Shown in pieces: positions 39,872-42,030 of a stretch of DNA of 47,650 bases. The first letter of the stretch is position 1. Every line of letters starts with the position of its first letter. Source of the DNA: Stappia sp. WLB 29 (lineage in GTDB: Bacteria > Pseudomonadota > Alphaproteobacteria > Rhizobiales > Stappiaceae). The stretch is from positions 471,231 through 518,880 of the forward strand of contig NZ_JALBGD010000003.1 in the NCBI RefSeq assembly GCF_023507705.1, given 5' to 3'. A program made the translations under genes and the position numbers. The notes beneath the pieces are model-generated. The model did no database searches. It saw nothing but the letters and a program-made list of their open reading frames with translations, and was not told where the DNA came from.

Positions 39872-40749
39872 GCTCGAACGCACGCGACCGGCGGATCGGG
39901 ACAGTCTGCCGCGAGGCGCGGGCGCGCCTTGCCGCGGCGGGCGTGGAGACGGCGACGCTGGATGCGCGCCTTCTCGTCGCCGCTGCCGCCGGTGTCGAGC
40001 CGGTCGTGCCCCTCACCGATCCCGATCGCGAGGTGACGGAGGCGGCACTGGCCCTGGCGGACAGCCACATCGCCCGCCGGGTGGCGGGCGAGCCGGTCGG
40101 CCGGATCCTCGGCTTGCGTGAGTTCTGGGGGATGACATTCGCGCTGTCGCGCGAGGTGCTGGAGCCGCGCCCCGACACCGAGCGCCTGGTGGAGGCTGTC
40201 CTCGACTGGTGCGACGAGAGGAAGGGGCGCGAGCATCCCTATCGCTTTGCGGACCTCGGCACCGGGAGCGGGGCCATCGCCATCGCCCTGCTCAGCGAGT
40301 TGCCGAGTGCGGTTGCCGTTGCCACGGACATGGCGCCGGGCGCCCTGCTGACGGCCCGCGACAACGCCGTCCGGAACGGAGTCGGCGACAGGTTCCTGCC
40401 CTGCCTTGGCGATTTCGCCTCGATGCTGGCACCGGGCATGGATTTCCTTGTCTCGAATCCGCCCTATATTTCCCTTACGGAAGAAGCACAGCTCTCCCGG
40501 GAGGTGAGGGAGCACGATCCCCGCGCCGCCCTGTTTGCCGGCGAAGATGGCCTGGATGCCTATCGGATGATCCTGCCTCAGGCGAAGACGTTGCTTGCCC
40601 GATTCGCACCGCTGTTTCTCGAGATCGGCGCATCGCAGGCGATTGCCGTGTCCCAGCTGGCCAAAACTGCCGGTCTTGAGGATGTTCAGGTATTTCAAGA
40701 TCTTGCCGGACAGGATCGGGTTGTGCGCGCGGCGTGTGTTGCAAAATAG
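39868..40749 (+). CDS. prmC: Peptide chain release factor N5-glutamine methyltransferase
   Basis: This 293-residue SAM-dependent enzyme methylates Gln233 of the RF1 encoded just upstream (and the equivalent in RF2). It shows the N-terminal helical recognition domain, GLREFWGM (the LGxxEFxG block), RPDTERLVE, motif [16 protein letters not shown], and the catalytic Asn-Pro-Pro-Tyr at residues 197-200. It starts with GTG overlapping the prfA stop, so the factor and its modifier are made together. A new promoter begins 30 bp after its end. Confidence 0.96.
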
Positions 40750-40779
40750 CGGCAGATATGGCGCTTGTGAAAAAGACGC

Positions 40780-40808
40780 TTGGAAAACCGGGCGGAAAGG
40801 GCTAGGTT
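40780..40808 (+). promoter_or_regulatory. Promoter for the structured leader and DUF4167 gene
   Basis: TTGGAA (40780-40785), 17-bp spacer, TAGGTT (40803-40808). The start point is expected near 40815, about 343 nt before the DUF4167 start codon. The spacing is ideal and the sequence resembles strong alphaproteobacterial promoters. Confidence 0.55.
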
Positions 40809-40814
40809 CACCTC

Positions 40815-41157
40815 GCCGAGACCCGACGGGGGTGGCGTTCGAAGCCACGGGTAGGCAGTACGATAGTTTTCGTTCCGGCCAGATCTCGCATCGCACGACG
40901 GAACTAACCGTCGGCAAAGATGCCCGGTGGACCTGATGGTCCCGGGGTTGCTCGGCATCGGTCTGTTCAAGATGAACCCTTAAAATCCAGCGGGAATGAA
41001 CGACGGCTGTCGTCTCGCGTCCCGCCGACGAAGGTCTGTCTTGATCGGCCCACGCAACACAGGCCTTGTGCAGTTGCGTTTCATGGCGCCGGTCCCGATG
41101 GTGGACCGGACTCCTGACCGGATTTGCCGGTCGCCGTTCTTGAGAGTTAACGGCAGA
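40815..41157 (+). ncRNA. Highly structured leader RNA of the DUF4167 gene, unknown family
   Basis: This non-coding stretch contains nine short perfect stems in a row: 40832-40848 (loop GTTCGAA), 40896-40913, 40929-40942 (within an outer GATGCC/GGCATC pairing 40919-40959), 40965-40977, 40990-41025 (with inner stem ACGAC/GTCGT), 41053-41078, 41089-41109, 41116-41132 and 41133-41154. The last has GCCGTT/AACGGC as stem and GAGAG, the probable Shine-Dalgarno, in its loop 11 nt before the ATG. I found no tmRNA tag, no RNase P core and no SRP motif. It may be a cis-regulatory leader or a separate small RNA. Confidence 0.5.
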
Positions 41158-41955
41158 ATGAGACCAGGAAATCAGAGCAACAACAAGCGCATCCGCGGTC
41201 GTGGTGGCCGCAAGGGACCGAATCCGCTGTCGCGGACCTATGAGTCCAACGGTCCCGATGTGAAGATCCGCGGGACCGCGCACCATGTCGCCGAGAAGTA
41301 CCAGCAGCTGGCGCGTGACGCCGCCGCTGCCGGCGACCGCGTGATGTCCGAGAATTATCTCCAGCACGCCGAGCATTACCTGCGCATCATCGCCGCAGCC
41401 CAGCAGAGCATGCATCAGCCGGTGGTCCTGCCGCGCGGCGATGAGGCCGAGGACGAGGCCGACGAGCTCGAGGAGCGCAACGAGCGGGCAGAGCGCAACG
41501 ACCGCAGCGAGCGGAGCGACCGCGGTGAGCGCAACGACCGCAGCGAGCGGAACGAGCGCCGTGACCGCGACCGGGATCGCGAGACCGGAGTCTCTTCGGG
41601 CAAGCCGGTGATGCCGGTGGACGCGCCGCAACCCTTCGTCGACGACATTCCGGTGATCAACACCAAGTCGCTGCCCGGCGAGAGTTCCGACACCGACACC
41701 GGCGACGAGGCCGGTGAGGATGGCGACGACCGCAGCCGGCGCCGCGTGCGCGGTGCCCGCGGACGCGGCCTGCGCCGCAGTCGCTCCGCCCAGGGCGAGG
41801 GCGATGGTTCGGACGAGGCGGCGAAAAGCAGTGCCGAGCCTGCCGCCGAGGCGGAGGTCCCGGCTGAAGCGACCGAAGAAAAGAAGCCGCGGGCCCGGCG
41901 CGCCCCGCGCAGCCGCAAGCCGGCGGAAGCCGAGGCCGCTGCGAGCGAGGCGTGA
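41158..41955 (+). CDS. DUF4167 domain-containing protein, probable RNA-associated
   Basis: In this 265-residue protein only residues ~1-85 form the conserved domain (NNKRIRGRGGRKGPNPLSRT, then IRGTAHHVAEKYQQLARDA and ENYLQHAEHYLRII). The rest is disordered and strongly charged: an Arg/Asp/Glu/Asn-rich repeat at about 97-145 and basic patches RRRVRGARGRGLRRSRS and KKPRARRAPRSRK. The basic RG-rich ends suggest nucleic-acid binding, but the function is unknown. The start is the ATG at MRPGNQSN; the upstream frame is not conserved-looking. It is preceded by a structured leader, followed by a terminator and clpB. Confidence 0.85.
   Translation: MRPGNQSNNKRIRGRGGRKGPNPLSRTYESNGPDVKIRGTAHHVAEKYQQLARDAAAAGDRVMSENYLQHAEHYLRIIAAAQQSMHQPVVLPRGDEAEDEADELEERNERAERNDRSERSDRGERNDRSERNERRDRDRDRETGVSSGKPVMPVDAPQPFVDDIPVINTKSLPGESSDTDTGDEAGEDGDDRSRRRVRGARGRGLRRSRSAQGEGDGSDEAAKSSAEPAAEAEVPAEATEEKKPRARRAPRSRKPAEAEAAASEA
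41491..41562 (+). repeat. 36-bp in-frame tandem repeat inside the DUF4167 gene
   Basis: The 25-nt run beginning GAGCGCAACGACCGCAGCGA occurs at 41491-41515 and again at 41527-41551, exactly 36 bp apart. It encodes ERNDRSERSDRG followed by ERNDRSERNERR. It looks like a slippage-type coding repeat that can change length between strains. Confidence 0.8.
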
Positions 41956-42001
41956 TCCGTCTCCGGCACGGCAGGGATGCCAGCCGCAGGGTTTGAAAAA
42001 A

Positions 42002-42030
42002 GGGCTGCAGCCGTACGCTGCGGCCCTTTT
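42002..42030 (+). terminator. Terminator of the DUF4167 gene
   Basis: GGGCTGCAGC (42002-42011), loop CGTAC, GCTGCGGCCC (42017-42026), 10 bp with one G-U pair, then TTTT. It separates the gene from clpB. Confidence 0.8.

Follow-up and report, generated by a model that had tools for sequence, protein, structure and literature searches.

Positions 40815-41157 of the window (the whole 47,650-nt stretch of Stappia sp. WLB 29 DNA that was analysed) most likely form a cis-acting structured mRNA leader of the DUF4167 gene that is not listed in Rfam. This reading combines folding above chance, a conserved promoter, covariation in hairpin H8, the gene order, constraint on codons 2-5 of the gene and the lack of an Rfam match. 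On this evidence the leader is new as an RNA; its kind, the cis-acting structured mRNA leader, is already known.

For the action of the leader we tentatively favour a model that falls a little short of being probable: a dedicated promoter and a leader of ~343 nt would control DUF4167 translation in cis, with autogenous repression by DUF4167 as the best guess. Transcription from the dedicated promoter, itself a presumed step, would yield an mRNA, probably monocistronic, that begins with the leader. The leader would form a series of hairpins, the last of them H7-H8-H9, together with an almost invariant element over the DUF4167 start codon, and would act in cis by setting the translation initiation (or decay) of the DUF4167 mRNA only. 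The putative effector is the DUF4167 protein, which would bind the leader and the start element and, once in excess, repress its own translation. In Stappia, the start would already be partly paired before any protein binding. The features of the locus are specified in Table 1.

Table 1. Positions in the window of the promoter, leader elements, gene and terminator-like hairpin
Feature	Position	Strand	Support
Promoter CTTGGAAA-N10-AA-N4-TAGGTT of the leader/DUF4167 unit (putative)	40779..40808	+	Conservation and position
Structured 5' leader RNA (presumed transcription start near 40815)	40815..41157	+	Stem-loop excess, MFE z, conservation, genus consensus structure
Closing helix P1, 5' arm GCCGAG, pairs with CUCGGC at 40951-40956	40815..40820	+	Stappia consensus; 95.5% of cells paired, no both-sided change
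P1, 3' arm	40951..40956	+	Stappia consensus
Hairpin GUGG/CCAC (helix 3), UUCGAA in loop	40832..40848	+	No both-sided change
Hairpins GCAUC/GAUGC and inner CGACGG/CCGUCG (helices 6-7)	40888..40923	+	Both-sided change in two pairs
Hairpin GGACC/GGUCC (helix 8)	40929..40942	+	Both-sided change in two pairs
Conserved motif GGUCUGUUC; GGACUGUC in most of genus g2	40960..40968	+	No both-sided change
Hairpin (helix 10)	40997..41016	+	Both-sided change in five pairs; 80.7% of cells paired
Hairpin ACGCAAC/GUUGCGU (helix 11)	41052..41079	+	No both-sided change
GUUUCAU, complementary to AUGAGAC at the start	41078..41084	+	Candidate alternative pairing
Hairpin H7 CCGGUCC/GGACCGG (helix 12)	41089..41109	+	Both-sided change in three pairs
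Hairpin H8 GACCGG/CCGGUC (helix 13)	41116..41132	+	Best-supported helix in Stappiaceae
Hairpin H9 GCCGUU/AACGGC, GAGAG in loop, last stem before the start codon	41133..41154	+	97.7% of cells paired
Near-invariant translation-initiation element AACGGCAGRAUGAGACCAGGAAAUCA, overlaps codons 1-6	41149..41174	+	Conservation
DUF4167 gene, 265 aa, PF13763	41158..41955	+	E 6e-33
14-bp GC-rich hairpin with U-tract, likely intrinsic terminator	41998..42030	+	Between DUF4167 and clpB

Locus and transcription unit

The best match to a named protein (100% over 100 aa) puts the source close to Stappia indica. The locus carries, in order, a prfA-like gene (which we take to be prfA), prmC (stop at 40749, identified by its PrmC_N and methyltransferase domains), a gap of 408 nt, DUF4167 and a clpB-like gene from 42188, presumably clpB. 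A sequence-only reading of this DNA had placed a DUF4167 gene downstream of the leader, and PF13763 was indeed found from 41158. Because a terminator-like hairpin sits 3' of DUF4167, the leader and the gene may be one unit, and this transcription unit is probably monocistronic. The same hairpin reads as terminator-like on either strand.

The sequence-only reading had seen no open frame worth noting in the leader. A mechanical ORF of 65 aa does lie within it (40920-41117), and DUF4167 could be extended upstream in frame from an ATG at 40996. The extension frame is not conserved, since it is interrupted by stops in the loci of seven relatives (close upstream in L020, L023, L027 and L028; TGA in L067, L189 and L204). 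ATG 40996 was rejected as the start of DUF4167, the frame being closed in relatives.

We consider it very improbable that 40815-41157 yields a separate small RNA acting in trans, its role as mRNA leader being incidental. The dense folding and the upstream promoter would suit such an RNA, but a consensus scan found no + strand terminator-like site within 40815-41157, so that the stretch lacks the terminator of its own before the next gene that marks a stand-alone small RNA, and conservation peaks at the start codon and runs on across it.

Promoter

The promoter that had been proposed before the leader was located at 40779-40808 (CTTGGAAAACCGGGCGGAAAGGGCTAGGTT), and we infer its function from conservation and position; an E. 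coli-type sigma-70 scan did not include it in its list. It was found in 30/30 of the loci first examined (own genome counted) and, as CTTGGAAA-N10-AA-N4-TAGNTT, in 98 of 100 Stappiaceae loci (duplicates counted). Among Hyphomicrobiales outside the family, 54 of 100 distinct loci outscored the best of 100 shuffled controls, and these 54 loci imply a transcript start ~201-443 nt upstream of the start codon, with a median of 268. Conservation of AA within the spacer could point to a special class of promoter.

Only one match with 0 mismatches was present in the genome, namely the window's own copy. When up to 2 mismatches were allowed, the reversed control pattern gave 7 and 1 matches, versus 1 and 1 for the true pattern; the looser matches carry no weight because the reversed control gives more of them. 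On these grounds a promoter common to other genes was rejected. In the class sample, closely similar promoter words (CTTGGAAA...TAGTTT) also stand before DUF4167 in two loci of other alphaproteobacterial families (L217 and L235), and the words are partly similar in L227 and L239.

Conservation and spread of the leader

DUF4167 is widespread in Alphaproteobacteria (115/121 genomes of the order sample, 87/87 Stappiaceae and 66/76 genomes of the class sample), and a leader is kept before the gene in the order and class samples. An upstream prmC, separated by a gap of 258-462 nt, was found in 91 of 100 Stappiaceae loci, the other nine being short fetches of 661 nt. It was also found at 255-932 nt in 91 of 102 other Hyphomicrobiales loci (the best-scoring among the matches listed). 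The class search gave 28 Alphaproteobacteria loci; the start was set in 26 of these and prmC was found in 22, at 187-400 nt.

A 461-nt DNA query that included the promoter and the start of the gene matched 35 of 37 Stappiaceae genomes (own counted), in all 7 genera, and 0/24 genomes of other families; outside Stappia the DNA matches were limited to the promoter and/or start blocks. Of 15 comparisons with the DUF4167-clpB gap, the leader was more conserved in 13 (two equal), and of 21 with the 3' coding DNA of prmC in 20 (one equal), as judged by identities to two digits, over 400 nt that include the promoter and in genomes that are related.

A model of H8, H9 and the start (R1) gave one strong match per genome in the 4/4 Stappiaceae genomes searched. 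This single match and the prmC-gap-DUF4167 order place the element in the 5' leader of the gene that it would regulate, on a presumed transcript. Outside Stappiaceae the R1 search returned no strong copy and weak matches in 20 of 117 genomes (best E 1.1e-4), one of which has its match beside DUF4167 (G053, E 0.095). On 54 of the non-family loci R1 gave 17 weak matches (E 0.035-4.7), and because 15 of these lie over the DUF4167 start, the start context appears to be related outside Stappiaceae, the hairpins not convincingly so. No strongly shared core word was found across families apart from the promoter words. Beyond Stappiaceae the stems diverge, and the promoter words, the leader length and the start context are kept; the consensus folds of six other clades (-0.2 to -77.6 kcal/mol, weak in three) had no common structure.

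These searches bear on whether the cis-acting leader might answer to something other than the DUF4167 protein, such as a metabolite (riboswitch), temperature, a trans-acting sRNA, Hfq or a translation signal, which is possible and rather unlikely. The conserved leader and start element would suit any translation-control leader, and a signal linked to translation or stress is plausible because the neighbours prmC and, by our naming, prfA and clpB serve translation termination or protein quality. Riboswitches often recur before several genes, whereas the 3' element is strong before DUF4167 only, in 4 Stappiaceae genomes; the want of a strong core word across families other than the promoter words, and of strong R1 copies outside Stappiaceae, also argues against such control.

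Folding compared with chance

Where nine consecutive perfect stem-loops had been claimed, ten non-overlapping ones (at least 5 Watson-Crick pairs, loop of 3-20) were found in 40815-41157, versus 4.3 ± 1.7 in first-order Markov resamples (0/200 reached ten). Eight of the ten belong to the consensus structure of 11 Stappia leaders. The MFE of the leader was -147.8 kcal/mol, with a z of -2.17 against dinucleotide shuffles (2/100 folded as well). In relatives, a survey that covered 98 of 186 distinct loci gave a mean MFE z of -1.93 in 48 Stappiaceae leaders and of -1.05 in 50 leaders from other families.

The stem-loop count in the last 250 nt exceeded the shuffled mean in 78/85 Stappiaceae leaders and in 65/99 other leaders. 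At the same loci, the corresponding counts for Stappiaceae and others were 31/52 and 45/88 in prmC coding DNA, and 41/51 and 46/99 in DUF4167 coding DNA. The mean z of the excess was 1.4 in the 85 Stappiaceae leaders versus 0.33 and 0.64 in the coding controls, and 0.56 in the 99 leaders of other families versus 0.13 and -0.04. The value of 0.64 is that of Stappiaceae DUF4167 coding DNA, which has some stem-loop excess too.

Helices and covariation

RNAalifold predicted 79 pairs in 14 helices from the 11 Stappia leaders; 93.1% of cells pair, against 28-48% in slid versions. Both-sided change was found in 14 pairs versus 7.1 in shuffles that ignore kinship (0/500), in a test that favours the consensus, which was derived from the tested sequences themselves. 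When slid by 1-3 columns, the consensus still had 7-12 both-sided pairs and 8-20 cells, versus 14 and 24, and the number of pair types did not beat shuffles (186/500).

For H8 and H9 together, 37 Stappiaceae sequences had 37 both-sided cells, all in H8, versus 9.6 in shuffles that ignore kinship (0/500) and 1-6 in slid versions. Two of five measures were not above shuffles: both-sided pairs (4 versus 2.8, 120/500) and pair types (14 versus 12.5, 85/500). Conserved structure with compensatory change was found in this way for H8 and for the Stappia consensus, while no pair reached significance in tests that used phylogenetic nulls, on 39 g2 and 76 Stappiaceae sequences. The idea of an unrecognised leader with covariation in relatives is borne out within Stappiaceae, by conserved stems and some compensatory changes, and does not carry beyond the family.

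The final stem that had been described as holding the likely ribosome-binding site is present as GCCGTT/AACGGC at 41133-41154, with GAGAG in its loop. No compensatory change was found in this hairpin, H9. In genera g5 and g6 its 5' arm is variable, and AACGGC is altered in only one of 76 sequences (L014); since AACGGC is nearly fixed while its partner varies, it seems to be kept for a reason besides pairing. Four loci of genera g5 and g6 (L026, L065, L067 and L184) carry AACGGCA twice, the extra copy lying no more than 110 nt upstream of the start. In Stappia, RNAalifold also pairs the conserved motif at 40960-40968 with GAAUGAGACC (41156-41165), which spans the start codon; this pairing is only a candidate because no both-sided change accompanies it.

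We give little credence to chance folding of GC-rich intergenic DNA in which only the promoter and the ribosome-binding site are conserved. Conservation is highest in the promoter and the start element, which are also the sole DNA matches outside Stappia, the phylogeny-aware tests are not significant and the slid Stappia consensus retains many both-sided pairs, all of which fit chance folding; the stem-loop excess, its coding controls and the covariation in H8 speak against it.

The start element and its codons

The DUF4167 codons 2-5 (41161-41172) read AGA CCA GGA AAT. Their synonymous entropy was zero in 52 distinct Stappiaceae genes of sufficient length, versus a mean of 1.24 bits (minimum 0.24) at 52 later conserved positions. 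Among 81 distinct Stappiaceae sequences only four synonymous exceptions were found: Arg was AGA in 81/81 and Pro CCA in 78/78, Gly was GGA in 72/75 (GGT in 3) and Asn AAT in 80/81 (AAC in 1). Codon 6 is free (CAA 47, CAG 34). In four genes of the window, 205 of the 215 Arg codons are CGC, CGG or CGT, and the single AGA is codon 2 of DUF4167. In 99 non-family sequences, codon 2 was AGA (53), AGG (40), CGA (5) or AAG (1), and never CGC, CGG or CGT.

On these codon counts, an RNA-level constraint extends from the leader into the DUF4167 gene, over codons 2-5. Part of it could reflect the usual tendency of starts to stay unstructured; selection for low structure could favour codons ending in A or T, yet leaves a single, almost invariant set unexplained. 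The long, kept leader and the constraint at the start codon in Stappiaceae suggest that the cell controls the amount of DUF4167 after transcription. In most Stappia and g2 leaders, GAGACC is common to the 5' end of the leader (40815-40823) and the start region (41160-41165).

Accessibility of the start and alternative pairings

Mean start-codon openness was 0.55 versus 0.43 in shuffles for 48 Stappiaceae leaders, and 0.42 versus 0.46 for 50 others. The start was less open than in shuffles in 11/14 Stappia leaders (several nearly identical), 2/16 g2 leaders (genus g2 includes loci from named Roseibium records) and 24/50 non-family leaders. Hiding of the start codon was rejected as a general resting state, as the Stappiaceae start is more open than shuffles and is hidden in Stappia leaders only. 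Duplexes of upstream segments with the start were no better than shuffled in energy (mean z +0.17 in 85 Stappiaceae leaders, +0.08 in 99 others). The suggestion that folding could control translation through the start is consistent with the Stappia leaders; the g2 and non-family counts, the lack of enrichment of start-complementary segments and the final stem without compensatory change run against it.

As the predicted start of g2 is mostly open, repression in that genus would need bound protein or refolding. The open g2 start would also suit a leader that is mainly an mRNA-stability element or spacer (e.g. a platform for RNase E entry or protection) with no specific switch, as would the stable hairpins and the length being kept more than the sequence outside Stappiaceae. 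We regard this as unlikely, as the conserved motifs and the near-absence of synonymous change over the start exceed the needs of a spacer.

The g2 consensus differs from that of Stappia: the 5' end GCCGAGACC is paired to GGUUUCGGU, which lies ~90 nt ahead of the start, and GGUUUCGG, which is placed like GUUUCAU of Stappia, pairs with the 5' end instead. This pairing of the 5' end exceeded 0.3 in 37 of the 55 Stappiaceae leaders in which the motif was found. The start region was paired with either anti-element at >0.3 (ensemble) in 2/67 and 4/55 leaders, all from Stappia.

A broader version of control by the DUF4167 protein, which we regard as distinctly improbable, would be an ancient refolding switch, spread across Alphaproteobacteria, by which a core RNA-binding protein controls itself: the 5' end GCCGAGACC would mimic the start region AUGAGACC, both would compete for anti-elements, and DUF4167 would shift the balance to a closed start. 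The modelled anti-elements would be GGUUUCGG at about -90 in g2, and GUUUCAU and GGUCUGUU in Stappia. In the predicted ground state of g2 the 5' end would hold the anti-element and leave the start open; in Stappia the alternatives would share the start region. Mimicry of the start by the 5' end was rejected as an order-wide rule, the longest shared word compared with shuffles being 5.3 versus 4.2 in 61 Stappiaceae heads (p<=0.05 in 4) and 4.3 versus 4.1 in 34 other heads (p<=0.05 in 3).

Known RNA families and the DUF4167 protein

No gathering match to Rfam was found in the window. Around the leader there were two chance-level matches (E 2.4 and 8.4), which lie on the opposite strand and are not riboswitches, and the leader matched no known riboswitch class. 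The earlier statement that no known RNA signature is present agrees with this, and with the tmRNA of the genome lying elsewhere. A tmRNA in the leader was rejected: none was detected in the window by RF01849 or ARAGORN, and the genome's copy is on contig C34 (299.7 bits). The alpha_tmRNA (RF01849) is likewise a structured RNA, and the GTTCGAA loop of the leader hairpin at 40832-40848 is superficially T-arm-like.

Autogenous leaders are known for RNA-binding proteins, such as the rne 5' UTR and the leaders of ribosomal proteins such as S15. Like these, the DUF4167 leader is long and folded, precedes the gene of a basic protein and has structure near the start, with lineage-specific structures for one gene across taxa; unlike these, it is described here from sequence, with binding and feedback as proposals. 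It is a candidate new Rfam family for Stappiaceae.

Comparative analysis has identified the alphaproteobacterial leader elements serC, speF, suhB, ybhL and metA/SAM-II (PMC1273637, in the portion available). These are also structured elements of intergenic regions and belong to other genes, and no Rfam model reaches threshold at the DUF4167 leader. A term search of the available text of PMC3927594, PMC1273637 and PMC2864571 returned no mention of prmC, hemK or clpB. The literature search found nothing on a prmC untranslated region in Sinorhizobium meliloti or on a prmC-clpB sRNA in Alphaproteobacteria. Titles and abstract beginnings retrieved by locus tags did not refer to a prmC-DUF4167 leader, and those naming DUF4167 gave no function.

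The DUF4167 protein had no NCBIfam match and no solved structure similar by sequence. The leader provides a concrete RNA for asking whether the protein is an RNA-binding regulator. The protein is basic with an RG/N/Q-rich N terminus, and its invariant positions across 41 relatives include M1, R2, R11, R13, G14 and R15; the basic character and the invariant R/G residues at the N terminus suggest that DUF4167 is an RNA-binding protein.
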